Origin: an uncultured Amylibacter sp.
Lineage (GTDB): Bacteria; Pseudomonadota; Alphaproteobacteria; Rhodobacterales; Rhodobacteraceae
Length of the DNA stretch: 64,000 nt
Assembly: GCA_947497475.1 (NCBI GenBank)
Contig: CANMGS010000001.1
Span: 434,001-498,000, forward strand
Direction of reading: 5' to 3'
The number at the start of each line of letters is the position of its first letter. Position 1 is the stretch's first letter. Both the position numbers and the translations under genes were made by a program. Of the stretch, positions 2,609-15,605 are shown one piece after another. The notes beneath the pieces were generated by a model. That model searched no databases, had not been told where the DNA came from, and saw only the letters and a program-made list of their open reading frames with translations.

Positions 2609-2797
2609 GTGGGAAATATCGTGGATGAACTTGCGACCATAGAACTTGATGAATATCAAAAAGAAGAGTTAGAAAATCTTCCAACTTATGACGTTGAAGA
2701 TATTCTTGGACGTACGAATATTGCGCGTCTTGTTTTTGGTTCACAAGTTTACTTCCTCCGTAGAACCCGACAAAACAAGTTGTTACTTACAAAATGA
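2609..2797 (+). CDS. hemP: HemP family hemin uptake protein
   Basis: A 62-residue protein whose C-terminal 35 residues fit HemP: DVEDILGRTNIARLVFG is the approach, and YFLRRTRQNKLLLTK matches the family's Y.LR.TR.gKLiLTK ending. HemP proteins are small cytoplasmic factors linked to heme/iron uptake genes; their biochemical role is still unclear. The start is GTG at 2609; a second in-frame GTG at 2621 is an alternative. The next gene begins inside the last codons (ATGA overlap at 2794), so the two are translationally coupled, and an imelysin gene follows. This places hemP at the head of an iron/heme acquisition operon. Confidence 0.82.
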   Translation: MGNIVDELATIELDEYQKEELENLPTYDVEDILGRTNIARLVFGSQVYFLRRTRQNKLLLTK

Positions 2798-3273
2798 TAT
2801 CACATTCAAAATCCAGAGGCGCTGCCCCTATTGGATACATAGACGAATTGCCACCATTAGAGATGACTTCGATTGTCTATCTGCGGATGTGGTGCGGTGG
2901 TGGCGCATCCCGTGAGCAGGTTCGCGATGACTTTATCCTAGCATTCGGCCAGTCCGTTGGTTCAATGCACAGCGCAACCTTTTCATCTTTCATGTTATTA
3001 CTCATCCATAAAGCTCGCCGTAAAATCATGCGTCATCAGACACATTGTCAGTGTTATGGTGGCGATGAAAGTGCTGTAGCAAACATGATTGCAGCCGCAG
3101 CAGCGGGCGACACGGAGGACGCACTTTTATTAGCGTCACACTTAATGCCATCAGAGGCAGCACCAGAGCTCGTAAATTCTGCTGAGGAAATCGGTTTGGC
3201 ATTCGATCACATGCTTGGACAAATGCATATGAAACTCATGCCAACACACAAAACACCGAAATCAAAACACTAA
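2794..3273 (+). CDS. Conserved small protein of the hemP-imelysin operon, function unknown
   Basis: A 159-residue protein without signal peptide or clear membrane segment. I do not recognise a named domain. Visible features are a hydrophobic helix around residues 55-72, then RRKIMRHQTHCQCYGGDE with a CxC pair at 85-87, an Ala-rich acidic helix (92-118) and a C-terminal Met/His-rich tail (HMLGQMHMKLMPTH). Cys, His and Met together suggest heme or metal handling, but that is inference. It overlaps hemP by 4 nt and precedes imelysin by 20 nt, so it very likely works with them. The compact operon position argues that it is a real gene. Confidence 0.7.
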   Translation: MISHSKSRGAAPIGYIDELPPLEMTSIVYLRMWCGGGASREQVRDDFILAFGQSVGSMHSATFSSFMLLLIHKARRKIMRHQTHCQCYGGDESAVANMIAAAAAGDTEDALLLASHLMPSEAAPELVNSAEEIGLAFDHMLGQMHMKLMPTHKTPKSKH

Positions 3274-3293: not shown

Positions 3294-4550
3294 ATGAAAA
3301 CCCTAGTTATTGGTCTTATGACGACAGCATTAACAGCAGTTCCTGCATTGGCAGATAAAACTGCTGTATTGGATAACTATTCAAACATTGCTGCTGCAAA
3401 ATTTGAAGACAGCCTTTTAACGGCTAAAGCATTGCAAGCGGCAGTGGATGCTTTGATCACATCACCATCTGCGGAAACATTAGAGACGGCTAAAACAGCA
3501 TGGTTAGCATCACGTGTGCCATACCAGCAAACAGAGGTATACCGTTTCGGCAATGCAATCGTTGATGATTGGGAAGGTAAAGTAAATGCATGGCCATTGG
3601 ACGAAGGTCTGATCGACTATGTTGATGCTGACTATGGCGGAGCAACAGATGAAAACGCTTATGCTGTTTTGAATGTTATCGCGAACCCAAAAATCACATT
3701 GTCAGGTAAAGACATTGATGCCTCTGTCATTACACCTGCATTGCTAGAAGGTGCATTGCATGAAGCTGATGAAGTGGAAAGCAATGTAGCAACGGGCTAT
3801 CACGCAATTGAATTTCTTCTTTGGGGTCAAGATTTGAATGGTCACGGCGAAGGCGCTGGTAACCGCCCATGGAGCGATTATGCATCAGGCGACACTTGTA
3901 CAAATAACAACTGTGATCGTCGTGGTGAGTATTTGAAAGCAGCTACAGATCTGTTGGTTTCTGATTTGGAATGGATGACTGCACAATGGCAAGATGGCGG
4001 TGCAGCGCGTGCCGAAGTCTTGAAAAACGAAGGCGCTGGTATTTCAGCAATGCTGACTGGTATGGGTTCTCTTTCATATGGCGAACAAGCTGGCGAACGT
4101 ATGAAGCTTGGCCTGTTGTTGAATGATCCAGAAGAAGAGCATGATTGTTTTTCTGACAATACGCACAACAGCCATTTTTATGACGGCTTAGGTGTGCAGA
4201 ATGTTTATTTGGGCACTTATACACGTGTAGATGGAACAGTTGTTTCAGGTGCTTCATTGTCCGAGCTTGTTGCTGCGGTTGACGCAGAATTAGACAATGT
4301 TCTTAAAGCTGAATTGGTCGCTACTATGACTGAATTGGGCGATATCAAAACAGCTGCAGATAATGGCTTTGCTTACGATCAGATGCTGGAACGTGGCAAG
4401 AAAAAAGGTGAAGCGCTTATTACAGATGCCGTAAACGCTTTGGTTACTCAAACAAAATCTATTGAACGTGTGACAAATGTGCTTGGCTTAGAAAAAATTT
4501 CATTTGAAGGCTCTGATAGTCTGGACAATCCAAACGCAGTGTTTCAATAA
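3294..4550 (+). CDS. Imelysin family (M75) periplasmic iron-regulated protein
   Basis: A 418-residue exported protein with a signal peptide ending near ALA (residues 18-20). The imelysin signature GxHxxE is intact as GYHAIEF (168-174), followed by LLWGQDLNGHG. A second conserved part is rich in helices (260-400). Imelysins such as IrpA/ICMP are iron-regulated periplasmic or outer-membrane-associated proteins; the proposed peptidase activity is doubtful for most members and iron or heme binding is favoured. A CxxxxxC pair (TCTNNNCDRR) is also visible. It sits 20 nt behind the CxC protein and 62 nt ahead of a porin-like gene, forming an uptake operon. Confidence 0.9.
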   Translation: MKTLVIGLMTTALTAVPALADKTAVLDNYSNIAAAKFEDSLLTAKALQAAVDALITSPSAETLETAKTAWLASRVPYQQTEVYRFGNAIVDDWEGKVNAWPLDEGLIDYVDADYGGATDENAYAVLNVIANPKITLSGKDIDASVITPALLEGALHEADEVESNVATGYHAIEFLLWGQDLNGHGEGAGNRPWSDYASGDTCTNNNCDRRGEYLKAATDLLVSDLEWMTAQWQDGGAARAEVLKNEGAGISAMLTGMGSLSYGEQAGERMKLGLLLNDPEEEHDCFSDNTHNSHFYDGLGVQNVYLGTYTRVDGTVVSGASLSELVAAVDAELDNVLKAELVATMTELGDIKTAADNGFAYDQMLERGKKKGEALITDAVNALVTQTKSIERVTNVLGLEKISFEGSDSLDNPNAVFQ

Positions 4551-4612
4551 GACTGTTACGTTATAACATAACATTTATAAGCTGCTTGCTTATTAAAAAA
4601 CGAGGACAAAAA

Positions 4613-5638
4613 ATGACTAAATTAACAGGTGCGCTTGCCGCAACTGCGCTGGTTTCGGCTGGGCAGCTGGCCTATGCAGAGGGCAGCTCTGGCTTTACAG
4701 TAGACTTGGAAATTGAAACCGCTGCTATTTCAACATTCTCTGCTGACGACCCAGCGGCAGAATTTACAGACGTTAATGCCGAAGTTACATTGGTTGCTGA
4801 AGTAGAATTGGGTTGGGGATTTTCTGCTTTCACAGAAATTCTATTTGAAACAGTAGAAGACCCAACAGACGATGTCTTCTTTGACAACCATGGTTTGTTC
4901 GTTAGCGAAATCGGTCTTGCGTATTCAAATGATCACTTCTCTGTTGCTGCTGGTAAAATCAGCCCAGCATTTGGTTTGGCTTGGGATGCGGCCCCTGGTT
5001 ACTTTGGTGCCGATCTTGCCGAAGATTATGAATTAGGCGATTCAATTGGTGCAGCCGTAGAAGTGCCGTTTAATCTTGCTGGTGGCGAGCATTCTGTATC
5101 TGCTGCTGTATTCTATTTGGATACAACTCTATTGAGCCGCTCAACAATCACGAAGCGTGGTCGCACAACTACAGATGATGGTGGTGCTGGTAATACAGAA
5201 AAGTTGGATAACTTTGCAGTGCAATTCGCAGGTGCTTTTGGCGACACAGAATACAACCTAAGCTTCCGTCAATTGTCAGCTGGTGTAGGCGATGTCGATG
5301 ATGACAGAGGTGTTTCATTGGGTCTGCAACACGCTTTTGGTGACTTTACACTTCTAGGTGAAATTGCAAGTTTTGATAACTTTAATGGTACAGCTGATGA
5401 CGTGACATATGGCACATTGGGCGGATCATACGCTTTGGATAAATGGACATTCTCTGCTAGCTACACAGCGCGTAACGGCGTTGCAGATGCAGATGATTAT
5501 CTTGCGTCTATTGGTGTTGATTACGACTTTGGTAATGATCTTGTAGCATCATTTGGCCTAAACCAATTTGAAGAGGCAGATCAGAAATCAAATTCAGTGG
5601 CACTGTCTTTGTATAAGGCATTCTCTTTCGGAGGATAA
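4613..5638 (+). CDS. Porin-like outer membrane beta-barrel protein
   Basis: The likely start is ATG at 4613 behind a GAGGACA ribosome site, giving 341 residues; an upstream in-frame ATG at 4586 would only lengthen the signal sequence. Residues 1-22 form a signal peptide ending in AYA. The mature part is acidic, Gly-rich and built of alternating hydrophobic strands (for example FTLLGEIASF, WTFSASYTARNG, SVALSLYKAF), as expected of a roughly 16-strand barrel. It ends in FGG rather than in terminal Phe. It follows the imelysin gene and precedes a strong terminator, so it may be the outer-membrane partner of that iron/heme module. The substrate cannot be read from the sequence. Confidence 0.72.
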   Translation: MTKLTGALAATALVSAGQLAYAEGSSGFTVDLEIETAAISTFSADDPAAEFTDVNAEVTLVAEVELGWGFSAFTEILFETVEDPTDDVFFDNHGLFVSEIGLAYSNDHFSVAAGKISPAFGLAWDAAPGYFGADLAEDYELGDSIGAAVEVPFNLAGGEHSVSAAVFYLDTTLLSRSTITKRGRTTTDDGGAGNTEKLDNFAVQFAGAFGDTEYNLSFRQLSAGVGDVDDDRGVSLGLQHAFGDFTLLGEIASFDNFNGTADDVTYGTLGGSYALDKWTFSASYTARNGVADADDYLASIGVDYDFGNDLVASFGLNQFEEADQKSNSVALSLYKAFSFGG

Positions 5639-5650
5639 TCCCAACCTTAT

Positions 5651-5681
5651 GTGCGGCAGGGTTGCACCTTGCCGCACTTTT
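5651..5681 (+). terminator. Rho-independent terminator of the hemP-imelysin-porin operon
   Basis: Stem gtgcggca (5651-5658) pairs with tgccgcac (5670-5677). The stem can extend inward by gggt/acct with one wobble, and a TTTT tract follows (5678-5681). It lies 13 nt behind the porin stop codon. Confidence 0.85.
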
Positions 5682-5739
5682 CAAAACCTTTTACGCAAGT
5701 TAAATCACATTTAGTGAACGCAACCAGCGGATAGATAAA

Positions 5740-5994
5740 ATGGCAAAAATTCCATCACCATGTGTTGATGTTTGCAAATACAAGCGCCAAGGACATTGCA
5801 TCGCTTGCTCTATGACCAAAGCGCAAAAATCACTTTTCAAAGAACTGAAAAAACCAAAACACCAACAGGCCTATATTGACATGTTGGTGCTTCAACAGGA
5901 ACGTTTAGGCAAATATGAACATTGGCTTGAAGCCTATGCCAAAAAATGCCGTAAGAAAGGCGTAAAGAACCCTTTATCCAAGATGGGATCTTAG
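5740..5994 (+). CDS. DUF1289 domain protein (Fe-S-like Cys motif)
   Basis: An 84-residue protein starting SPCVDVC, with further Cys in GHCIACSMT (residues 24-32). The SPC.dvC...g.C.gC pattern is the hallmark of DUF1289, a small family of unknown function whose four cysteines suggest a bound metal or iron-sulfur centre. The C-terminus is basic (KKCRKKGVKN). It stands alone between the porin terminator and dps. Its last 21 bases overlap the 3' end of the convergent dps gene. A metal-binding role is inference. Confidence 0.85.
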   Translation: MAKIPSPCVDVCKYKRQGHCIACSMTKAQKSLFKELKKPKHQQAYIDMLVLQQERLGKYEHWLEAYAKKCRKKGVKNPLSKMGS

Positions 5995-6444
5995 GAACCA
6001 CGCAAACTTTTCATGCGTTTGGCCACGTGCAATACATAGATCTTCTGTAAGGGTATCCCCAGCTTCTGCCGCAAGCTCGCCTGCACCAGCAATTGTTGCT
6101 GCAAGTGTCTCTTGCGCTTCGAGCATCATCTGAATCATTTCTTTATCAGATGCTTTGCCTTCAAATTCTGAAACTTTTGAACGTTTGATCATGCCAGCCA
6201 AAGTGCCTTCCGCATGCACGTTAAGTGCCTTCACACGTTCGGCCAAATCGTCTTGGGCAACGAAATGGTCTTCGTACATTTTTTGGAATAGATCATGTAA
6301 TGGGCCAAAAGCCATTCCAGTTACATTCCAGTGGAAATTTTGTGCCAGCATTGTTGTCACTGCAGTTTCTGCAACACACTGATTTAAAGCATCTGCAATT
6401 GCTTCTTTTTGGGATGGGGCAAGGTTTGCCGCTGTCTGGGTCAT
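5974..6444 (-). CDS. dps: Dps/ferritin-like DNA-protecting iron storage protein
   Basis: A 156-residue Dps family member, which oxidises and stores iron in a dodecamer and protects DNA. The intersubunit ferroxidase ligands are visible: His38 in NFHWNVTG, His50 in PLHDLF, Asp65 and Glu69 in DDLAERV, spaced as in E. coli Dps (H51/H63/D78/E82). I chose ATG at 6444 (MTQTAANLAP) over an upstream in-frame ATG at 6480 because the family begins there. A perfect Irr-type iron box lies 92-108 nt upstream, so expression should respond to iron. The 3' end overlaps the convergent DUF1289 gene. Confidence 0.93.
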   Translation of the reverse strand: MTQTAANLAPSQKEAIADALNQCVAETAVTTMLAQNFHWNVTGMAFGPLHDLFQKMYEDHFVAQDDLAERVKALNVHAEGTLAGMIKRSKVSEFEGKASDKEMIQMMLEAQETLAATIAGAGELAAEAGDTLTEDLCIARGQTHEKFAWFLRSHLG

Positions 6445-6535
6445 TACAATCTCTTTCGCTAATGGGCGGGTGGCTTGCAATTAGGCTGGCTTCCCTAACA
6501 TCAATATAAGCAAGGAAAAGCAGTTGTCCAGAATT

Positions 6536-6552
6536 TTTAGAATGATTCTAAA
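6536..6552. promoter_or_regulatory. Irr box / iron control element (ICE) upstream of dps
   Basis: TTTAGAA-TGA-TTCTAAA is a perfect palindrome with 3-nt centre, matching the ICE consensus TTTAGAA-N3-TTCTAAA bound by Irr in alphaproteobacteria. It lies about 90 nt upstream of the dps start and overlaps the stop codon of the upstream minus-strand gene. Irr usually represses iron storage genes when iron is low, which fits dps. Confidence 0.75.
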
Positions 6553-6976
6553 TTTGAGTGATTTGCTCGGATACATTACCGATTAAAAACGTGATCGATC
6601 TGCGGTAAGGCTGTGCAATACGGCTTTGAACCAAGAACCTTACAGACGCTTTATCATTATGTTTTGCACGCATTAAAGCACGTAAAAGCCATGTTTCATC
6701 GAACGAATAATCCTTTGAATTCGGCGTGTAAAAAACGGGCGAGCGATTAAGCCCCTGTTTCATAGTACGCAACAGAGCATCGGCAAAATGCTCTGCCATT
6801 GCCTCGTCATCGCGGATCAACAAACGGCACGCTTCAAAAATATCGACATGCGCAGAACTGCGGCACCGCATAGATAACATACGTAGCTTGTTCAGAAACT
6901 GGATGGCTTCTGCTGAAAACGGCGTTTGCGTTATTTCACGATCTTCGACCGGGGTATATTTCAGAACTGCTGACAT
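6548..6976 (-). CDS. Conserved hypothetical protein, 142 residues
   Basis: I do not recognise a named domain. The protein is soluble and mostly helical, with no signal peptide, and is rich in Arg and Ala. Notable words are RMLSMRCRSSAHVDIFEACR (residues 32-51), FADALLRTMKQGLNRSPVFY and ETWLLRALMRAKHNDKASVRF; the C-terminal part RSITFLIGNVSEQ is hydrophobic. The order and compactness are those of small alphaproteobacterial helper proteins, but no function can be given. It ends inside the Irr box that controls dps, is on the same strand as dps, and is divergent from the di-heme oxidoreductase gene. Confidence 0.7.
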   Translation of the reverse strand: MSAVLKYTPVEDREITQTPFSAEAIQFLNKLRMLSMRCRSSAHVDIFEACRLLIRDDEAMAEHFADALLRTMKQGLNRSPVFYTPNSKDYSFDETWLLRALMRAKHNDKASVRFLVQSRIAQPYRRSITFLIGNVSEQITQI

Positions 6977-7020
6977 GTTTTCGGTCCATGCTACCTTTTG
7001 ACGACTCGTAAAAATTCATT

Positions 7021-7039
7021 CCTGACTGTATTTATCAGG
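7021..7039. promoter_or_regulatory. RirA-type iron-responsive operator (TGA-N9-TCA)
   Basis: ccTGActgtatttaTCAgg matches the TGA-N9-TCA iron-responsive operator with two extra base pairs of symmetry on each side. It lies 26-44 nt upstream of the di-heme oxidoreductase start, where binding would block transcription when iron is sufficient. The motif is short, so chance occurrence is possible; the iron-related neighbours support it. Confidence 0.55.
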
Positions 7040-7064
7040 TAATCCAATAGAATCAAGACTTGCC

Positions 7065-8576
7065 ATGAAACCTCTGATCACATTTCTATCATTGACCGTA
7101 ACGGTATCTGCTGCATATGCATTGGAACCAACGCTAGACAATATTGTGCCGCGCACAGCTGAAGAAACTGAACGTGTTCAAAATATAATCGCACCGACGA
7201 ATGATTTTTCACAAGCAGAAGCTTTTGAAACATTTTCAGCAGGCGCTGCAAGTGTGAGGTACAGCAAAACCAACAATGCATTTTCATTACCGTCTGGAAA
7301 TGTCGATTTTGAAGGTGAATTAGATTTCAAATTGGGCAATGCATTGTTTCGGAAACTTTGGGTATCATCCCCATCATCCACATTAGCATCCGACGGTTTA
7401 GGCCCCCTTTATAACGCACGTTCATGTCAGCGTTGCCATCTAAAAGATGGTCGTGGACATCCACCAGAAAACGCAGAGGATAGCCCCGTATCATTGGTGA
7501 TGCGACTTGCCCGACCAGGCGCTGAGAACCCGTATATGGAAGAGATTGAGGATTATCTAGGCTCCCTACCCGATCCAACATATGGCGGACAATTCCAAGA
7601 TTTTGCGATTCCAGGACATGCTGCCGAAGGGCGGTTTAGAATAGAATACACGGATGAACAGATCACATTATCTGATGGTTTGGTTGTCACACTTAAAGCG
7701 CCTACATATCGTCTAGAAGACCTAGCCTATGGCGCATTGCACCCAGACACAATTGTTGCGCCGCGTATTGCGCCCCAAATGATTGGGTTGGGCTTATTAG
7801 AAGCCATTCCAACGGCGGATATTATGGCAAATGCAGATCCCGATGATTTGAACGGGGATGGCATTTCTGGTCGTGCGAATATTGTATATTCGCGCCAACT
7901 TGGCGACCTTGCATTGGGTCGTTTTGGCCTGAAAGCACATAACGCAACGATCATGGATCAATCAGGCGCAGCGTTTCAAAATGACATTGGAATATCATCC
8001 CCGCTTTATCCCGAAGGATGGGGGGATTGTACGGATGCACAAGAAGCCTGTCAGTTGGCCCCTGACGGGAATACAGATGTGCATGATGGCGCAGAAATAT
8101 CAAATGACGGGATGGATTTGGTGAATTTCTACGCGCGAAACCTTGGCGTTCCAATTCGGATCAATCACGAAGAACCAGACGTTCTGCGTGGCAAAGAAGT
8201 GTTTTACAAATCTGGCTGCATTGCATGTCATACACCAAAGTTTGTGACCAACCGCTTAGAAGGACAAGACGAGCAAAGTTTTCAACTCATCTGGCCTTAT
8301 ACAGACATGCTTTTACACGATATGGGCGAAGGTTTGGCAGACAATACAACAGCAGCACGCGCAACAGGCCAAGAATGGCGCACACCACCGCTTTGGGGTA
8401 TTGGCCTGACACAACAAGTTAGCGGTCATACGCGCTTCCTGCACGATGGACGTGCGCGTAATTTGCTAGAAGCAATTCTGTGGCATGGGGGTGAGGCAGA
8501 AGGTGCAAAAAACAAAATCATCGCTTTATCTAAAGAAGACCGTGATGCATTGATTACCTTTCTGGAAAGCTTGTGA
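7065..8576 (+). CDS. Di-heme oxidoreductase family (DUF1111) c-type cytochrome
   Basis: A 503-residue exported cytochrome with a signal peptide ending near AAYA (residues 16-19). Two CxxCH heme sites are visible: CQRCH (121-125) in the MauG/peroxidase-like first domain and CIACH (385-389) in the second. A Ca-binding-like loop NADPDDLNGDGISGR lies between them (256-270). The family is distantly related to di-heme peroxidases; its substrate is unknown. It is the first gene of a coupled trio with an imelysin-like protein and DUF1513, behind a RirA-type box, so a role in iron acquisition is likely. Heme attachment implies periplasmic location. Confidence 0.9.
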   Translation: MKPLITFLSLTVTVSAAYALEPTLDNIVPRTAEETERVQNIIAPTNDFSQAEAFETFSAGAASVRYSKTNNAFSLPSGNVDFEGELDFKLGNALFRKLWVSSPSSTLASDGLGPLYNARSCQRCHLKDGRGHPPENAEDSPVSLVMRLARPGAENPYMEEIEDYLGSLPDPTYGGQFQDFAIPGHAAEGRFRIEYTDEQITLSDGLVVTLKAPTYRLEDLAYGALHPDTIVAPRIAPQMIGLGLLEAIPTADIMANADPDDLNGDGISGRANIVYSRQLGDLALGRFGLKAHNATIMDQSGAAFQNDIGISSPLYPEGWGDCTDAQEACQLAPDGNTDVHDGAEISNDGMDLVNFYARNLGVPIRINHEEPDVLRGKEVFYKSGCIACHTPKFVTNRLEGQDEQSFQLIWPYTDMLLHDMGEGLADNTTAARATGQEWRTPPLWGIGLTQQVSGHTRFLHDGRARNLLEAILWHGGEAEGAKNKIIALSKEDRDALITFLESL

Positions 8577-9559
8577 TGAGATTGATCTTATTTCTCATAT
8601 GTATGTTTTCAGCACCTGCATACGCAGGTGTCAAAGAAGCGGTTGATGTGACAAAGAGTTTTCACGAAAACTTTGCAATACAAGCTCAGTTGCTTGCATC
8701 AGATGCAGAAAAAAGCTGTGGGCCAGACTTCTTAAAGCCTGTTTATCACAAAGCTTTCGATGCTTGGGTTACAGCAAGTATAATTCAATTTGGCCCCATC
8801 GATGATGTTGGTGGGCCTCTTTCAATCGCATTTTGGCCTGATAAAAAAGGTTTCACGGCTAAGACTATAAAACGGCTGCTGCAAGAGAATGGTGAAATCA
8901 TTACGGATAAAAATCAGTTCGCAGAAGTATCAATTGCTGGTAAAGGTTTCTTTGCATTAGAACGCCTTTTGTTTGATCCTGAATTCAGCATGTACTCAAC
9001 GACCAGTGCAGAGTGTCTTTTGGTTAAAAATATTGCGAAAGACATTGCACAAAAAGCAGACCGTATGAATGATCTGTGGCAGACAATGTTTTCTGATTTC
9101 TTGTTAACGGCTGGCGAAGAAGACAACACCGTATTTTTATCAAAGGAAGAAGCCGCACAAGCCTATCTGACATCTGTGATTGGTGCTTTGGAATTTATCG
9201 AGACAACGCGCCTTGCAAGACCTTTGGGTACATTAGAGCGCCCACGCCCAAAGCGAGCAGAAGGATGGAGATCAGAACGACCTTTGCGTAACATCAGAAT
9301 TTCTTTGGCTGCATTAGATGATATGGTCTCTGCGCTTGGAGATAACGAAGCCCCTGCAACCCAAGAAGAATTATCAATCGCTCTGTCATTCATTCCATCT
9401 ATTCAAGATAAAAGTCTGCAGTCCATTACAGATATATCTGTTCGGTTCAAAGTGGAAAGCCTATTGCAAATGGTCATAAATATTAAAGAAGCCGCGACCG
9501 AAGAATTAAGTTTACATCTCGGCGTCACAACAGGCTTTAACGCATTGGATGGAGATTAG
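8576..9559 (+). CDS. Imelysin-like periplasmic protein (GxHxxE motif altered)
   Basis: A 327-residue exported protein with signal peptide MRLILFLICMFSAPAYAG-like (cleavage near residue 18). ATG at 8576 overlaps the preceding TGA by one base; GTG at 8573 is an alternative. The fold matches imelysin, with WVTASIIQFGPIDD and PSIQDKSLQ-type helices. At the signature the sequence is GKGFFALERLLF, so the His of GxHxxE is Phe while the Glu is kept. It may therefore bind metal differently from the imelysin at 3294. It lies between the di-heme oxidoreductase and DUF1513 genes with almost no spacing, so the three form one operon. Confidence 0.85.
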   Translation: MRLILFLICMFSAPAYAGVKEAVDVTKSFHENFAIQAQLLASDAEKSCGPDFLKPVYHKAFDAWVTASIIQFGPIDDVGGPLSIAFWPDKKGFTAKTIKRLLQENGEIITDKNQFAEVSIAGKGFFALERLLFDPEFSMYSTTSAECLLVKNIAKDIAQKADRMNDLWQTMFSDFLLTAGEEDNTVFLSKEEAAQAYLTSVIGALEFIETTRLARPLGTLERPRPKRAEGWRSERPLRNIRISLAALDDMVSALGDNEAPATQEELSIALSFIPSIQDKSLQSITDISVRFKVESLLQMVINIKEAATEELSLHLGVTTGFNALDGD

Positions 9560-10633
9560 ATGACCACGCGTCGTGCATTTTTATCTGGTTTATTAGCAGC
9601 ATCCACAACTCCAAATCTTACATGGGCCGATGCTGGCAGCCCAGCTTATTTGGCTGCAGCAAAGCTACCAAATGGCAGCTTCGCGCTTTTTGGCCTGTCA
9701 GCTACTGGGAAAGATATCTTTCAAATCCCATTGCCTGGGCGTGGCCATGCAGCCGCTGTTCATCCAGAAAGACCAGAAGCTGTTGCTTTTGGCCGCAGAC
9801 CGGGGCGTTTTGCATTAGTGATTGATTGTACAACAGGTCTGTTCACCCAAAGGTTGGATGTCCCGAATGAGCGGCATTTTTATGGGCATGGGGCCTTTAT
9901 CCATAATGGCGAAATTTTATGTACGACAGAAAATAACATCAAAACAGGTGAAGGTGTTATTGGCCTTTGGGCGCGGTCTGAAAATTATCGTCGTATAGGT
10001 GAGTTTTCTTCGGGCGGCATAGGACCGCATGAATTGAAAACAATGCCCGATGATAAGACTGTTGCAATCGCAAATGGGGGTATCAAAACCCACCCTGATA
10101 CGGGACGTGAAAAGCTTAATTTAAATACTATGCGTCCAAATTTATCCTTTCTTGACGATGCTGGGATAATACAGAGCAAAATTGAATTAACCCCTGAATT
10201 ACATCAAAACTCGATCCGGCATTTGGATGTATCTATGGGAGGCAGAGTTGCCTTTGGTATGCAATGGCAAGGTGATCCATCGGAGACGCCAGATCTTGTT
10301 GGGCTTATAGAGCCAGACGATAAGGTAAGGACGTTTAATTCAGGTTTAAGCCAACAGAGTGGGTTGCAAAACTATATAGGAAGTGTTGCGCTCTCTTATG
10401 ATGGGAACACAATCGGTGTGACTGCACCTAAAGGTAACAGAGCCCATTTTTACAGTCGCAATACTGGTTTCATCCACACTATAAAACGCAATGATATATG
10501 CGGGATAGCGACAAAAAATGACAGCTTTATCACCACGGATGGAACCGGTGGCGTCTTTAATGTTAATGATCGTAATCTAACCATTTTAGCACATACATCA
10601 CGCGCATGGGACAATCATCTGGTTAAGATATAA
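9560..10633 (+). CDS. DUF1513 family protein, Tat-exported beta-propeller-like
   Basis: A 357-residue protein that starts directly behind the imelysin stop. The N-terminus TTRRAFLSGLLAAST is a twin-arginine signal, so the folded protein is probably exported by Tat. The body has repeated short strand patterns (PGRGHAAAVHPERPEAVAFGRR, GIGPHELKTM, IGSVALSYDG) as in WD/NHL-like propellers. DUF1513 is regularly found with imelysin and di-heme oxidoreductase; function is unknown, and it has been considered an iron-uptake accessory. A cofactor would explain Tat use, but no ligand set is evident. It converges with the histidine kinase gene 61 bp downstream. Confidence 0.88.
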   Translation: MTTRRAFLSGLLAASTTPNLTWADAGSPAYLAAAKLPNGSFALFGLSATGKDIFQIPLPGRGHAAAVHPERPEAVAFGRRPGRFALVIDCTTGLFTQRLDVPNERHFYGHGAFIHNGEILCTTENNIKTGEGVIGLWARSENYRRIGEFSSGGIGPHELKTMPDDKTVAIANGGIKTHPDTGREKLNLNTMRPNLSFLDDAGIIQSKIELTPELHQNSIRHLDVSMGGRVAFGMQWQGDPSETPDLVGLIEPDDKVRTFNSGLSQQSGLQNYIGSVALSYDGNTIGVTAPKGNRAHFYSRNTGFIHTIKRNDICGIATKNDSFITTDGTGGVFNVNDRNLTILAHTSRAWDNHLVKI

Positions 10634-10694
10634 AGCATTTACTTAATTCAACTATTGTTCTCAAAGCATCACCACATATTGAAGCTTGGCTCAC

Positions 10695-12053
10695 TCAATT
10701 TCCGCTGGTGAGTGCATCCGCCATTACCTGAAATAACATATTTTTCTTCACTGGCTTTGCCAGATGATTATCCATGCCTGCTTCGATGTAACCTGCAACT
10801 TGGTGCACCATAGTATTGGCGGTTAATGCAAGAATTGGAATACTTTTTCGGCCCATAGCATGGTCTCGTTTACGGATATTTTCGGTTGCCGTTACACCAT
10901 CTACTATTGGCATATTGATATCCATAAAGATCACATCGAACTCTATGTCCTGTGTTGCATCAATTGCCTCTTGGCCATTTGCGGCGACGGTTATGTCTAA
11001 ATCAAACTGTTTTAAAAACTTTTTAAACACCAGTTGATTGGTGCGATTATCCTCTGCCAATAATACCCGCCATTTTTTTTTGGAAATTATTGCAATCGCA
11101 TCACCGATATCTATTTTAACTTCGTTTTGAGCTTCGTCTTCAACAGTCACTTTCATTGTCGCAGTAAAACATGACCCAACACCTTCGGTACTTTCGATAT
11201 GTATATCACCATCCATCAAGGCGCAGATTTGCTTGGAAATAGATAGACCTAACCCTGTACCGCCATGCTTACGCGCGATTGATGCATCCACCTGAACAAA
11301 GGGTTGGCATAGGGCTGAGATTTTATTGGCAGGTATCCCTAAACCTGTGTCTCGCACCTCTACGATAATATCTGCATCTTGGCCGTTTTTTGTGTGCAAC
11401 CGAACATCTACAGTAACGCTTCCCTTACTTGTGAATTTGATCGCATTAGAGATCAGGTTTCCAACCACTTGGCGTAACCGCACAGGATCGCTTTTGATCC
11501 AACATTTTGCGGTATCATTTACATTCACATGGAATGCGATGTCTTTTTCGATAGCTTTAAATGAATACAATTGCTGGGTAGCAACAAACAACGCGTTTAA
11601 ATCAAAAGGCACCGTTTCGATTTCTAATTGCCCTGCTTCAATTTTAGAAAGATCTAAAATATCGTTTAATACAGCTAACAAAAGTTGCCCTGAGTCGACA
11701 ATTGTGGCCGCCATAGAAGTCTGTTCATCAGAAAGCTGTGTATCAGTTAGTGCTTCCGCCATACCCAAAACACCATTCAACGGTGTTCTGATTTCATGAC
11801 TCATACTCGCCAAGAATACGCTTTTTGCGTGGCTCGCAGCTTCGGCAATTTCGCGTGCTTTTTCCAGATCAGCCGTTCTTTCCTGGACCACTTTTTCCAA
11901 ACCATCTGCCTGCTGGATTAGCTTCTGATTCACATCCCATAATTCACGGCTTTTACCATCAAGCAATTGTTCCGCTTCTTCGCGCGCTAGGCGTTCGCGG
12001 TTGTAGCGTCTACGGGAAACATATGGGTTCTCTTCTGTAGATGTTTGCAGCAT
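10695..12053 (-). CDS. Hybrid sensor histidine kinase with receiver domain, H-NOX partner
   Basis: The 452-residue form starts at ATG 12053, 10 nt behind the H-NOX stop; a GTG at 12104 inside H-NOX is an alternative. Order of domains: a coiled coil (about 15-75), HisKA with phospho-His86 in MSHEIRTPLNG, HATPase_c with N box NLISNAIKF, DTGLGIP and GGTGLGLSISK, and a receiver with the acidic pair in LLAEDN, phospho-Asp in FMDINMP and LAKPVKK. There is no membrane segment or sensor domain, so input must come from a partner. The H-NOX gene just upstream is that partner: in known HnoX/HnoK pairs NO-bound H-NOX inhibits the kinase. No output regulator is adjacent. Confidence 0.9.
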   Translation of the reverse strand: MLQTSTEENPYVSRRRYNRERLAREEAEQLLDGKSRELWDVNQKLIQQADGLEKVVQERTADLEKAREIAEAASHAKSVFLASMSHEIRTPLNGVLGMAEALTDTQLSDEQTSMAATIVDSGQLLLAVLNDILDLSKIEAGQLEIETVPFDLNALFVATQQLYSFKAIEKDIAFHVNVNDTAKCWIKSDPVRLRQVVGNLISNAIKFTSKGSVTVDVRLHTKNGQDADIIVEVRDTGLGIPANKISALCQPFVQVDASIARKHGGTGLGLSISKQICALMDGDIHIESTEGVGSCFTATMKVTVEDEAQNEVKIDIGDAIAIISKKKWRVLLAEDNRTNQLVFKKFLKQFDLDITVAANGQEAIDATQDIEFDVIFMDINMPIVDGVTATENIRKRDHAMGRKSIPILALTANTMVHQVAGYIEAGMDNHLAKPVKKNMLFQVMADALTSGN

Positions 12054-12063
12054 ATAGGTCTCT

Positions 12064-12609
12064 TTACGCTGCCATAGAGATTTTAAAATCTGCTTTAAAT
12101 TCACCAGAAGAACTATGATCTATCTTATCAATATCAGCTGGTTCCTTAAAATGCTCCACGCAAGCTTCTATCATACCTTGGCAAAAATCAATCAAAGGAC
12201 GCTCAGAACAATAAACCATTCTTAACGTTTTTTCATCGATACGTTCAGTTGCAAATGTTGGCAATTCCACTTCAGGATATAATTTACGCACTTCAACATG
12301 CACTTCATTTTCTATCGATTCAAGCATCGTAAAAGCATCATTCTTACCGACAAAAAAGGCTGGGTACCCTTCGGCGAAACGCATGAACATCCAGCGGCCA
12401 AACTTATTTTGCAATTCAGAAACTGGTGCATTTAATTTTTCGCTAAACGCCTGCACGAGGATCATCAGTTCACTGCATGGATAATTCCCAACAGATGTAA
12501 AAGCACCGTTTGTTTCCAAAGGGCATTCATCCAAAATTGCATCTACAGCATCTTCGCCTGCTATAGACTCTGCCATATTCAACAACTCCACAAAAACCAC
12601 ACCCTTCAT
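12064..12609 (-). CDS. H-NOX (heme nitric oxide/oxygen-binding) sensor protein
   Basis: A complete 181-residue H-NOX domain. Start ATG 12609 has an AGGAGG site 6 nt upstream. The proximal heme ligand is His104 (NEVHVEVRK), Pro117 sits where the heme-distorting proline is expected, and the heme-propionate motif YxSxR is Y133-C-S-E-R137. The N-terminus MKGVVFVELLNMAE is typical. H-NOX proteins of facultative aerobes bind NO with high affinity and signal to a kinase or cyclase. The hybrid kinase follows in the same operon and cytochrome genes lie upstream on the same strand, so NO probably tunes respiration or a phosphorelay. Confidence 0.92.
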   Translation of the reverse strand: MKGVVFVELLNMAESIAGEDAVDAILDECPLETNGAFTSVGNYPCSELMILVQAFSEKLNAPVSELQNKFGRWMFMRFAEGYPAFFVGKNDAFTMLESIENEVHVEVRKLYPEVELPTFATERIDEKTLRMVYCSERPLIDFCQGMIEACVEHFKEPADIDKIDHSSSGEFKADFKISMAA

Positions 12610-12697
12610 ATTCAGCCTCCTACAGTTCGTTAGAAGCATCGTTAGAGGACGGATGTTAAAAAGAGGTTTAACTTTAGCTGTTTGTTTTGATCAAAGT

Positions 12698-13195
12698 TTA
12701 TGTACCCTGATACAATAATGCGACCCATATATGGATAAGCACCAGTGGTATCATCACTGTTGATAGGGTCATATGCACCCAAAACCAAACCAGATACATC
12801 CACCTTTGCGGGTATGGAATGATCTCGCGGTTCAAGATGCCTGTTATAGCTGTTAATACAAATACAATCGCTAATGCTGATGTCCACATATGCCCCGCAC
12901 TTATCGCGTGCAGCGCGAACATCCCTGTTGCAGTCACCCCGACCCACCTATGCGCCAAATAATGAAAACGCGCATGTTGGGTTCTTTGCGTTTGCCGCAG
13001 ATAAAATAGATACCATTGATATGTTAATGCTATGACCAACAATGAGCCTGTTATCCACTGCCATAAAAACTCGGGGGTTGCCGGTGATAAAACGCCTTGG
13101 ATCAGTTCAAATAAAGCTAAGAGAGCTAAGACAACCGTAAAGCCGCCAAATATAAGATAGGGTTGTTTTTTGGCTTTTAAGATAATTGCGTTCAT
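12698..13195 (-). CDS. Membrane cytochrome b-like protein (about 5 TM)
   Basis: A 165-residue integral membrane protein with about five hydrophobic helices (roughly 13-33, 43-64, 78-105, 108-124 and 133-160). Histidines suited to heme ligation lie in helices 3 and 5: HRWVG, ALHAISAGH, VWFWVHM and VLIHIW. This pattern fits a small cytochrome b561 or ferric-reductase-like quinol-linked subunit; I cannot assign a named family. It overlaps the preceding c-heme gene by 4 nt (13192-13195), so it is translated with it, and it likely passes electrons between quinone and the two cytochromes c. Confidence 0.72.
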   Translation of the reverse strand: MNAIILKAKKQPYLIFGGFTVVLALLALFELIQGVLSPATPEFLWQWITGSLLVIALTYQWYLFYLRQTQRTQHARFHYLAHRWVGVTATGMFALHAISAGHMWTSALAIVFVLTAITGILNREIIPYPQRWMYLVWFWVHMTLSTVMIPLVLIHIWVALLYQGT

Positions 13196-14025
13196 TGTGA
13201 CGTTTCCTTTCCACCGTTTGATGTCAATTGGGTTAAAATCGTTTCTGCAGATGCACGTCTTACAGCTGCCATAAAAGTCTCAGTGTTTGGCAGTGCAATA
13301 CGGTCTTCGCTTGGCCATTCATCAGTCACAGGAATGGGGGTTTGAAACGCAACAGCTTTTTCCAGATACAAAGCATAAGCCTCTTCAATTGATTGAAACA
13401 CAGCATCTAATGTTTCCATATATTCTGATGTTCCAATGCGACCTTTGGGATAAGTCCATGTCGTCGCCCCCATCATATCGTCTAGTTTCCAATCCTTTTT
13501 GGGACTGTCCAAATGATCATTATGGCAAGTCACACACGCCATAACCCCTGCTACATCTGGATACATAGCAACAAACCCACTTGCTGCATCGTTTGAAAAA
13601 ATTGGTGCTCTTGTTTGTTTTAAAGTGACAAATGCTTTGGCTTGCTCTCCAGTAAACAAGTTGGATTGATTGATCGGTTCATCAGACCCAAGATAAAGCC
13701 CTAGCAATGGAGGTTTGGTTTCAAGTTGTTGTGCCGCCAATCGTAGGAATAATGCGGGTAAAGGGCCTTTTTCTACATTGGGTTCGGCCCAATCTTCACC
13801 AAACTTCAAGCCGATTTTCGCCCCAGCACTCACGATACGTTTCGTATAAATTGTCCGTGCCGCATCATTGGCTGCATTCACAGCATTGAACATTTTCTGC
13901 ACCTCTACAGTGCGGCCGTCTGTGGCATTTGCATCTATATCCTCTAGTGGCATTGGAGCAGATGCAAAAAGATACACCCCCATGCACATAAAAATTCCAA
14001 CTAAGATAATTTTCGTTCGTGTCAT
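13192..14025 (-). CDS. Periplasmic c-heme protein, Tll0287-like/DUF3365 domain
   Basis: A 277-residue protein with an N-terminal membrane anchor or signal (residues 5-23). A single CxxCH, CVTCH (164-168), sits in VMACVTCHND, followed by DDMMGA; this is the layout of DUF3365/Tll0287-like heme domains, which occur as redox or gas sensors and as electron carriers. Earlier conserved words include PLPALFLRL and TGEQAKAF. It overlaps both neighbours by 4 nt. In this setting it may accept electrons or sense redox/NO in the periplasm; that is inference. Confidence 0.78.
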   Translation of the reverse strand: MTRTKIILVGIFMCMGVYLFASAPMPLEDIDANATDGRTVEVQKMFNAVNAANDAARTIYTKRIVSAGAKIGLKFGEDWAEPNVEKGPLPALFLRLAAQQLETKPPLLGLYLGSDEPINQSNLFTGEQAKAFVTLKQTRAPIFSNDAASGFVAMYPDVAGVMACVTCHNDHLDSPKKDWKLDDMMGATTWTYPKGRIGTSEYMETLDAVFQSIEEAYALYLEKAVAFQTPIPVTDEWPSEDRIALPNTETFMAAVRRASAETILTQLTSNGGKETSQ

Positions 14026-14699
14026 TGGTTCTCCGCCTTATATGTTTTTTCATTCCCATATGGGCTTGGCCCATTTTTTAAATAATTTTGTATTTCTTCT
14101 ACTGAATGTGCTTCTTCTAATTTTAATGGCGCCGCGACAGGGTGATTGCCGTGAAAGTCATGGCACCCCAAACAGGTCCCCCATGAATTTTGCGCAATAA
14201 GCGTTTTATGCGGCACATCTATCGTGTCGTTTTTCACAATCAGTTTTGAATGACAGGCCTGACAGTTGTCATGTTCTGCAAAAACGCGTTCATCCGAATG
14301 TTCCGAATGGCATCCAAGACATGTCGTTGCATTAACAGTCTCTAGAGCTTTCAAAAATCTTGGCTCACGAAAACGGTATATTGGATGGCGCTCATTCTTA
14401 CGCTCATGACAATCTAAGCACTGCACAGATGTCACTGGGCCATATCCAAAATCTACAGGCTGTTTACGCTGCCCTAGAATGTATAAAAAATTTGCTTGGA
14501 TTTGCTGGCGGTATGTCCCAGCGCTTTGCACATGGCAGCCACTGCAATCGACATCCTCATGCCCTGCTTGGATAGGCCCGTGTGCAATCAAAGTCTTTGG
14601 CATATCAGAAAGCAAGATTAACAGACCTAGTACTGCAATCGGAACAGCAATGATAAAAGCAAACAATCTTAGCTTTGGAAGCGTAAACTTCTGGGGCAC
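14022..14699 (-). CDS. Membrane-anchored pentaheme cytochrome c
   Basis: A 225-residue protein with an N-terminal membrane helix (residues 11-31) and five CxxCH motifs: C52-H56, C94-H98, C127-H131, C146-H150 and C176-H180. Extra His residues near the motifs (GHEDV, SEHSDE, FAEHDN, DFHGNHP) could be distal ligands, giving bis-His hemes as in NapC/cytochrome c3-like proteins. It is the first gene of the operon that continues with the c-heme and cytochrome b proteins. It probably carries electrons in the periplasm; the donor and acceptor are not known. Confidence 0.87.
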   Translation of the reverse strand: MPQKFTLPKLRLFAFIIAVPIAVLGLLILLSDMPKTLIAHGPIQAGHEDVDCSGCHVQSAGTYRQQIQANFLYILGQRKQPVDFGYGPVTSVQCLDCHERKNERHPIYRFREPRFLKALETVNATTCLGCHSEHSDERVFAEHDNCQACHSKLIVKNDTIDVPHKTLIAQNSWGTCLGCHDFHGNHPVAAPLKLEEAHSVEEIQNYLKNGPSPYGNEKTYKAENQ

Positions 14700-14780
14700 G
14701 AAACAAAACCTTATTCTAAAAATATTAAAATTAAGGCTATTTCAGTTAATATTATTTAAGAATTGATTAAAAATATCATA

Positions 14781-14808
14781 AAAAAACGCGACTGATAAAG
14801 CCGCGTTT
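14781..14808 (-). terminator. Terminator of the substrate-binding protein gene
   Basis: On the minus strand, aaacgcg (14808-14802) and cgcgttt (14790-14784) form a 7-bp stem around an 11-nt loop, followed by T residues (14783-14781). It lies 24 nt behind the ABC substrate-binding protein stop and just before the cytochrome operon start region. Confidence 0.8.
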
Positions 14809-14831
14809 CATTTTCAGTATGAATTATTTTA

Positions 14832-15605
14832 TCAAAGGCCCCATTTTTCACGCGTTGCGGAAAAGAAGCCTTTTGCCTCTTTTAACTCAATCCAACTGTT
14901 CACGTAATTGATCCAAACTTGATCAGCTTGTGGCAACAACATCGCAATTGGTGTTGGCGCACGCGCTTCTACATCAATGGCAGCCACTTCTGGGAATTTA
15001 GTCACCAATGTTGAGCCTTCGATATTCGAGGTCACAAACACATCTGCACGACCTGCAAGCACTTCTTGGTATCCGCGTGCTGGTGCTTCAACCGTTTTAA
15101 TGTCTGCATTTGGGAACCAATCTTTGACCAATTTTTCAAATGATGTTCCCAAAGTCGTTGCAACTTTCACACCTGGTTGATTAATTGCATCCCAGCTGGT
15201 GAATTTATCCGCCTTATCTTTTGTCGTAAACGGCAACATTTCCACGTAAATATAGCTGTCAGAATATCCCGCAACTTTCATGCGCTTCGTACTGATCGAT
15301 GCAGAACCTGTCATGTGGTAATTCCCTGCAACGATGCCGTTAACCAGAGTTTTCCAATCGGTTGGCACCATCTCCAACTCAACGCCCAAATCTTTGGCAA
15401 GCTCAGTTACGATGTCGATATCATAACCCTTGTAAGAGTTCGTCGCTGGGTCTTTCACTGACATAGGGTTCCAATCCCCTGTCGTGCCAACTTTCAATTT
15501 ACCATTGTTCAAAATGTCATTTAACGCAGATTGTGCAGATGCAGGAGCACCAAAGAAAAGTGACAAAGCTGTCGCAGCCAATCCAAGTGTTTTAAGTAGT
15601 TTCAT
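14832..15605 (-). CDS. ABC transporter substrate-binding protein, polar amino acid type
   Basis: A 257-residue periplasmic binding protein. The true start is ATG 15605 with AGGGA upstream; residues 1-24 are a signal peptide ending ASA. The SBP_bac_3 fold is plain: LKVGTTGDWNPMS (ligand strand), YKGYDIDIVTELAKDLG, STKRMKVAGYS and VATTLGTSFEKL. Its resemblance is strongest to cyclohexadienyl-dehydratase-like binding proteins, but it should act in uptake. It is divergent from the ATPase and permease genes across a 112-bp gap. The ligand is not predictable; an amino acid or small carboxylate is likely. Confidence 0.9.
   Translation of the reverse strand: MKLLKTLGLAATALSLFFGAPASAQSALNDILNNGKLKVGTTGDWNPMSVKDPATNSYKGYDIDIVTELAKDLGVELEMVPTDWKTLVNGIVAGNYHMTGSASISTKRMKVAGYSDSYIYVEMLPFTTKDKADKFTSWDAINQPGVKVATTLGTSFEKLVKDWFPNADIKTVEAPARGYQEVLAGRADVFVTSNIEGSTLVTKFPEVAAIDVEARAPTPIAMLLPQADQVWINYVNSWIELKEAKGFFSATREKWGL

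Follow-up and report, generated by a model that had tools for sequence, protein, structure and literature searches.

A conserved trio of heme proteins beside an H-NOX/hybrid kinase pair in an uncultured Amylibacter: a candidate nitric oxide-linked electron-transfer operon

Organization of the locus

Five genes lie in a row on the minus strand, from 14699 to 10695, in a 64,000-nucleotide stretch of the genome of an uncultured Amylibacter sp. (Rhodobacteraceae; contig CANMGS010000001.1, positions 434,001 to 498,000; hereafter the window). In the direction of transcription they encode a pentaheme c-type cytochrome, a Tll0287-like (sCache_heme) protein, a small membrane b-type cytochrome, a canonical H-NOX and a hybrid histidine kinase. 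The subject of this study is the trio formed by the first three proteins and its relation to the H-NOX/kinase pair, with which it may make up a nitric oxide (NO)-linked electron-transfer system.

The trio genes are joined by 4-nt ATGA overlaps at 14022-14025 and 13192-13195, and an 88-nt gap (12610-12697, minus strand) separates them from H-NOX; the original prediction had described the five genes and their spacing correctly. A gap of similar size is found in both relatives that carry the same five genes. If a transcriptional break divided the trio from the H-NOX/kinase pair, a terminator would be expected in this gap, where none is predicted, and the RNA fold of 12605-12720 is no better than expected (z -1.36). 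The sole terminator-like site on the minus strand within 10400-15000 is a hairpin upstream of the block (14809-14783), following the preceding SBP_bac_3 (transporter) gene. It is likely to be the upstream limit of the operon, and the stretch 14690-14830 folds better than its shuffled versions (z -3.61). Neither terminator-like sites (2 found, 4.5 expected) nor promoter-like sites (9 against 11.1) exceed chance in the region. The downstream neighbour is a convergent DUF1513 gene that ends at 10633. Both ends of the block are plausible and no break is visible inside it; the five genes look like one operon, which would be read as a single transcript.

Heme proteins of the trio

The pentaheme cytochrome (14022-14699, minus strand) has a GTG start, an N-terminal hydrophobic stretch that probably serves as an anchor, and five CXXCH motifs at residues 52, 94, 127, 146, and 176. 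All five are kept in 77 of 79 aligned relatives, the other two having four and three. Five further histidines (47, 105, 134, 164, and 183) occur in at least 99% of 80 aligned sequences, and a sixth, His186, in 94%. The five are the likely distal ligands, which would probably make all five hemes bis-His, a pattern that may be expected of an electron carrier. The NapC/NirT family was not among the seven Pfam families matched at E 0.1.

The second protein (13192-14025, minus strand) is a stand-alone Tll0287-like c-heme protein of 277 aa, with an N-terminal hydrophobic helix and a domain that is presumably periplasmic. It matches PF11845 above the cut-off (31.1 bits against 24.1, E 3.7e-7) and has one CXXCH motif, CVTCH at 164. 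C164, C167, H168, and M185 are invariant in 50 of 50 aligned sequences, and M185 is a candidate heme ligand. Beyond the CXXCH pair there is no conserved cysteine, and 26 of the 50 sequences have two cysteines only. The AlphaFold2 model (mean pLDDT 91.2) appears to share the fold of Tll0287: in a structure search, Tll0287 itself (5b82) came first of 529 matches with E up to 10 (probability 1.00, E 1.4e-2), and no match reached 0.001. A sequence-profile search of the PDB with this protein did not recover 5b82, and PDB sequence searches with the trio profiles gave no useful match.

The membrane b protein (12698-13195, minus strand) has four histidines predicted to be heme ligands, H82/H96 and H141/H155, which form two H-x13-H pairs and are invariant in 33 of 33 aligned sequences. 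Two such pairs typically indicate that a protein holds two b hemes, one stacked on the other. No Pfam family matches above its cut-off, DUF4405 falling below it (22.5 against 26.7 bits). The structure model is helical (pLDDT 91.1), and a search with it found nothing significant (E 1.6 and above); its weak matches include Dcytb (5zle) and cytochrome b561 (4o6y), with talin bundles ranking higher.

The H-NOX/kinase pair

The H-NOX gene (12064-12609, minus strand) starts with an ATG at 12609 preceded by AGGAGG. Its product matches PF07700 with 136.9 bits against a cut-off of 25.5 and carries the full heme motifs claimed for it at the outset: the proximal histidine, H104, and the YxSxR residues Y133, S135, and R137. 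A PDB search returned 27 distinct sequences at E <=1e-3, the best being 6ocv (E 2.8e-38). The kinase (10695-12053, minus strand) combines HisKA, HATPase_c, and Response_reg in one chain, all above cut-off, and Pfam gives it no sensor domain, again as predicted. Its reading frame is open from a GTG at 12104; the ATG at 12053, 10 nt after the H-NOX stop, is the likelier start because both orthologues (L021 and L022) start at the matching position.

Which protein receives the phosphate from such a kinase? A search of the genome for the Hpt family PF01627 gave one match, a 112-aa open reading frame (ORF) at C1:1072157, which is a candidate for the phosphotransfer protein sought by the original prediction. 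Pairing of this kind is regular in the family: in a sample of 248 genomes from 247 genera, a kinase-profile match adjoins H-NOX in 26 of the 26 high-scoring loci viewed (L001, L038-L062).

The same Amylibacter genome holds a second HNOB copy (L026:8715-9329, on contig C1 near 62 kb) beside a GGDEF gene (7705-8715). Tyrosine replaces its proximal histidine, and threonine, phenylalanine, and lysine stand in the YxSxR columns. With these replacements and its GGDEF neighbour, this copy resembles the group-5 H-NOX of PMC8738867 and the D. shibae HNOX/Dgc1 pair (PMC7232146).

Distribution of the trio

To what extent is the trio a unit of its own? A six-protein alignment was compared with one genome for each of 84,980 species, and the best 80 of 308 relatives were kept with the surrounding 3.4-16.8 kb (17 stretches are shorter than 10 kb). 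All three parts are present within the stretch in 73 of these 80, which suggests that the trio works as a unit. Among the seven others, one starts near a contig end and six lack a b-protein match only; some relatives show a b part fused with additional domains, or another gene order. Judged by record titles, the relatives belong to the Pseudomonadota, Bacteroidota, Planctomycetota, Nitrospirota, Gemmatimonadota, Methylomirabilota, Myxococcota, and Campylobacterota. On this distribution, the trio is an ancient unit, widespread over many phyla.

Within the family sample, five genomes besides the Amylibacter genome encode a close orthologue of the Tll0287-like protein (55-58% identity, E <=1e-99). 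H-NOX adjoins the trio in three of these six and is located elsewhere in the other three. Two further genera, represented by Harenicola maris (G232, L021/L067) and a Paracoccaceae metagenome-assembled genome (MAG; G223, L022/L069), carry these five genes in identical order, with 40-68% identity per protein; because the order recurs in two other genera, the arrangement is not a matter of chance. In the congener G120, the Tll0287-like protein has no more than a weak match; a close trio orthologue and a canonical H-NOX are both lacking, and a short-chain dehydrogenase gene takes the place of the five-gene block.

Weak matches to the Tll0287-like protein (27-53% identity over part of the query) occur in twelve more family genomes. 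In L035-L037, the match is part of a protein of 521-614 aa. In three other Rhodobacteraceae (L027, L030, and L034) a Pyr_redox flavoprotein, a ten-heme cytochrome, and a Tll0287-like protein are clustered, with a BFD domain in L027 and L034. In L033, an Rrf2 regulator, a Pyr_redox flavoprotein, and a globin surround the Tll0287-like gene. These four clusters are possibly a further nitrite/NO electron system.

Association with H-NOX

The original prediction coupled H-NOX to the trio and was to be given up if the trio occurred mainly without H-NOX in relatives. This is largely what the neighbourhood survey found: no H-NOX was seen beside the trio in 77 of the 80 relatives, or in half of the six family genomes that have both. 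A strict dependence of the trio on H-NOX is thereby rejected, and the claim weakens to one of being found together in genomes and sometimes in one block.

How strong is this looser link? HNOB-family genes of any type are present in 181 of the 248 family genomes, most of them scoring far below the window H-NOX. With a threshold of our own (E <=1.5e-28), canonical H-NOX is found in 26 of the 248; the lowest-scoring of these genomes, G086 (L062), has glutamine in place of the proximal histidine. Canonical H-NOX occurs in all six trio genomes and in 20 of the 242 others (Fisher p 7.6e-7), and the three genomes in which trio and H-NOX lie apart give p 7e-4 on their own. Other cuts, with 25 or 28 canonical genomes, give p 5.8e-7 or 1.2e-6 (6e-4 or 9.5e-4 for the three unlinked genomes). 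When any HNOB match is counted instead of a canonical one, the association is not significant (p 0.15); thus, the link is to the canonical, kinase-paired H-NOX. As a control, nnrS was used, a marker of NO metabolism. It is present in 2 of the 6 trio genomes and 104 of the 242 others, and an association of the trio with NO metabolism in general, as far as this marker represents it, is not supported.

H-NOX was also searched for in the genomes of 50 of the 80 named trio relatives. In the trio clade that includes the window (L067-L091 and L095), 22 of 26 genomes have a canonical H-NOX, the exceptions being L078, L079, L082, and L091; these counts are not independent of those above, since at least four of the 26 are shared with the family sample (equal coordinates) and many are from Shimia. 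Outside the clade canonical H-NOX was found in L106, L108, L114, and L119. The L114 case is a 6.2-kb MAG contig titled Gemmatimonadetes that carries the trio, a 127-aa ORF, an H-NOX (PF07700, E 2.1e-31), and an MCP-domain protein. L114 is far from the window lineage in the trio tree, so the H-NOX/trio neighbourhood probably formed a second time there. A search of 248 other genomes from the phylum gave no close relative of the trio, and the case is that of one MAG contig.

The trees add some detail. In the H-NOX tree, ten sequences including the window copy form a group (SH-aLRT 95); eight of the ten are from trio genomes, although four of these eight were fetched because of having the trio. 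In the family sample alone, trio genomes make up four of six inside the group and two of twenty outside it (p 0.013). Compared by eye, the trio and H-NOX trees do not agree in detail, which makes repeated joining and parting likelier than a single origin.

Could the trio and the H-NOX/kinase pair be accidental neighbours in a variable accessory block, without any shared function? The unmatched trees speak for this, as do the three family genomes in which the two lie apart. It is at odds with the association at genome level, both in all six trio genomes and in the unlinked ones alone, with a five-gene order shared by three genera, and with the second adjacency in the distant lineage of L114. 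We regard accident as doubtful. Among the genomes compared, the looser link at genome level is real. Of the original coupling, an association beyond chance stands, carried by the co-occurrence and by L114, whereas a need for the two to be adjacent does not.

Electron supply and genomic settings of the relatives

Where would the trio obtain its electrons? In 33 of the 80 loci, a reductase module of the flavin or BFD-[2Fe-2S] type is fused to a trio part or lies within 7.5 kb (phmmer, E 1e-4). The Pfam matches of L143, L117, L104, L102, L100, L133, and L122 bear this out with FAD, NAD, or BFD domains. For example, Fer2_BFD, FAD, and NAD domains share one chain with the b part in L102, and FAD, NAD, and Fer2 domains one chain with the pentaheme part in L122. 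A further fusion is seen in the Planctomycete L104 (4702-7266), where two stretches of cyclic-nucleotide-binding domain, a BFD and an FAD domain, and a b-cytochrome match make up a single chain of 854 aa. Such modules suggest a trans-membrane electron conduit, which in the distant relatives seems to receive its electrons from a flavoprotein in the cytoplasm. In the window clade, none of 26 loci has such a module, so quinol would be the natural substitute. The quinol-linked route of the original prediction thus fits the CXXCH and histidine pattern of the pentaheme protein, the H-x13-H pairs of the b protein, and the flavoproteins of the relatives; that NO tunes the route is still a supposition.

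In six flavobacterial loci (L135, L137, L140, L141, L143, and L144), a globin lies near the trio. The six also hold a separate FAD/NAD/2Fe-2S reductase and relatives of NMT1-type ATP-binding cassette (ABC) transporters, and a relative of NirB-type nitrite reductase is within reach in five of them. In L143, Pfam identifies a globin, a Crp-type regulator, a nitrite reductase (Pyr_redox, BFD, NIR_SIR), a major facilitator superfamily (MFS) transporter, and an NMT1-type ABC binding protein. From their neighbours, we take the MFS transporter and the NMT1-type protein to be nitrate carriers. By its gene content, L143 is a nitrite/NO setting, which is not proof of function.

Iron-type neighbours

On the plus strand, the block is adjoined by an iron-type cluster (3294-10633) of an imelysin, a porin, DHOR, a second imelysin, and DUF1513, with a ferritin-like gene on the opposite strand (5974-6480). 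The imelysins, porin, DHOR, and DUF1513 are plausibly iron-related. These neighbours would fit a reading in which the trio is a trans-membrane ferric or cupric reductase, and the H-NOX/kinase pair adjoins it since NO signalling controls iron traffic. The flavin modules of the relatives resemble ferric reductases (one in L143 matches "Ferric reductase NAD binding"), and the structure search with the b protein gave Dcytb and cytochrome b561 as weak hits. Work on fischeri, mentioned in PMC5588039, may also favour this reading. Those structure matches are not significant, however, and rank below talin bundles. Moreover, four of the iron-type genes (imelysin, DHOR, imelysin, and DUF1513) persist in the congener G120, where the block is missing, and at E 1e-5 no relatives of these four were detected in any of the 80 trio loci. 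The iron-type genes were thus rejected as a recurring partner of the trio, and a metal reductase is an unlikely explanation.

Sites of the FNR/NnrR type were considered as a control signal of the operon and rejected. With up to two mismatches there are 69 matches against 57.7 expected, and the one full match lies outside the operon. It is a perfect TTGAT-N4-ATCAA palindrome at 2646-2659, the only one in the 64-kb window, upstream of a 159-aa ORF (2794-3273, no Pfam match) and of the first imelysin.

Proposed function

We give about an even chance to the proposal that the trio is an electron conduit and the H-NOX/hybrid kinase pair an NO signalling device, linked in function within one operon. 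The small b cytochrome, with its two b hemes, would take electrons in the inner membrane, in the window lineage most likely from quinol, and would hand them over to the pentaheme protein, itself anchored in the membrane, which would deliver them to the sCache c-heme. This last heme is the likely reactive or reporting end because it is the only heme without an evident conserved histidine or cysteine as second ligand. In the cytoplasm, NO bound to H-NOX would change the activity of the kinase, presumably by inhibition as in the studied pairs, and phosphate would pass via the kinase receiver to a separate phosphotransfer protein. The trio may handle NO or a related periplasmic oxidant while the H-NOX pair adjusts the response of the cell to the same condition. 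What the analysis shows is the genes with their order and motifs, the conservation of the predicted heme ligands, the flavoprotein modules of relatives, and the association with H-NOX at genome level; the single transcript, the flow and direction of electrons, the quinol donor, the shared NO theme, the inhibition of the kinase, and the phosphorelay partner are inferred.

NO may control the conduit, or the conduit may reduce or report periplasmic NO. A tentative and more specific form of the proposal, for which we would give rather long odds, is that NO is handled in two compartments: a quinol-fed wire would end in a periplasmic sCache heme that binds NO and reduces or reports it, while H-NOX would read NO inside the cell and, by way of the kinase, set the level of the wire. 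If this were true, the trio would represent a new class, either of nitrogen-oxide reductases bound to the membrane or of NO reporters, spread across many phyla.

Alternatively, the trio could sense redox state or NO in the periplasm and signal to the hybrid kinase, H-NOX being the cytoplasmic arm of the system. The adjoining kinase is without a sensor domain, NO sensors are among the types of the Tll0287/sCache_heme family (PMC12889525), and the window protein, having no conserved cysteine outside CXXCH, does not have the Cys ligand that marks the redox type. A sensor, by contrast, would not need the flavin-reductase modules seen in 33 of the loci; the kinase lacks an evident membrane part and is not connected to the trio by a HAMP or signalling domain, and no H-NOX was seen next to the trio in 77 of the 80 loci. 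We consider a sensor quite unlikely, and the suggestion made at the outset that the c-heme proteins report the state of the periplasm stays conjectural.

What can the characterized sCache_heme proteins tell us about NO binding by the trio? According to PMC12889525, a protein with a signalling (HAMP) region and without an axial cysteine holds NO tightly; a stand-alone, Cys-ligated protein does not, and its Cys-to-Ala variant also releases NO fast. The window protein is stand-alone but lacks the cysteine, so its behaviour towards NO is not predictable from either. In the same text, stand-alone proteins of this family are given "likely redox-related roles".

Several observations weigh against the proposal of a conduit linked to NO signalling. 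NO binding by the stand-alone sCache_heme protein of P. putida was weak, and the protein was taken to be redox-related (PMC12889525). H-NOX adjoins the trio in L067, L069, and L114 only (3 of 80), 20 of the 24 trio genomes searched outside the window clade have no canonical H-NOX, and kinship among genera may inflate the co-occurrence. No terminal reductase was recognised in the operon. In the genome, there is no NnrS match and no Cu nitrite reductase above cut-off (NirS and NO synthase were not searched for); with no NO source seen among these, NO may come from neighbours or hosts.

Comparison with known systems

The b protein may be compared with flavocytochromes of the NOX/ferric-reductase type and with MsrPQ-like heme membrane partners. 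The b protein has the two H-x13-H pairs of the NOX/ferric-reductase type, and distant relatives have a flavin module. It differs in that the FAD/NAD(P) domain is absent from the window copy, though present in relatives such as L102, and in that the window b protein is paired with multiheme c proteins. The NirB-like/decaheme/Tll0287 clusters (L027, L030, and L034) likewise combine a multiheme c protein with a Tll0287-like protein. However, they have ten hemes and a flavoprotein with a BFD [2Fe-2S] domain, and identity with the Tll0287-like protein is about 26-31% over part of its length; no H-NOX match to the window profile is among the matches listed there.

The window protein shares with the sCache_heme/DUF3365/Tll0287 family the CXXCH motif, a Pfam match above cut-off, and 5b82 as best structure match, but it has no conserved axial cysteine. 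In this it differs from the Tll0287 type, whose heme has Cys/His ligands. It also differs from the NO-sensor type, being stand-alone and not fused to HAMP, a kinase, MCP, or GGDEF. PMC12889525 distinguishes stand-alone, cytochrome_c-fused, and signalling-fused types; the words "operon" and "multiheme" do not occur in its text, so the conserved trio is not described there. The trio names partners with which stand-alone sCache_heme proteins can be tested.

H-NOX/histidine-kinase pairs are known from Shewanella oneidensis, Vibrio, and Silicibacter sp. TrichCH4B (PMC8738867). As in these, a canonical H-NOX is followed by a kinase in the window, but here the pair is preceded by an electron-transfer trio of heme proteins. 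The word "cytochrome" is absent from the text of PMC8738867, and the legend of its neighbourhood figure names no such partner. No description of the trio as a unit, or of its tie to H-NOX, was found in the literature searches made, which is not proof of its absence from print. Thus, the H-NOX/kinase pairs and the sCache_heme proteins were known already, while the trio is apparently an undescribed, conserved heme module, and an H-NOX signalling operon with an electron-transfer partner is apparently new. The association with H-NOX gives this module a candidate role, and it would give H-NOX kinases an electron-transfer partner besides cyclic di-GMP and quorum sensing.

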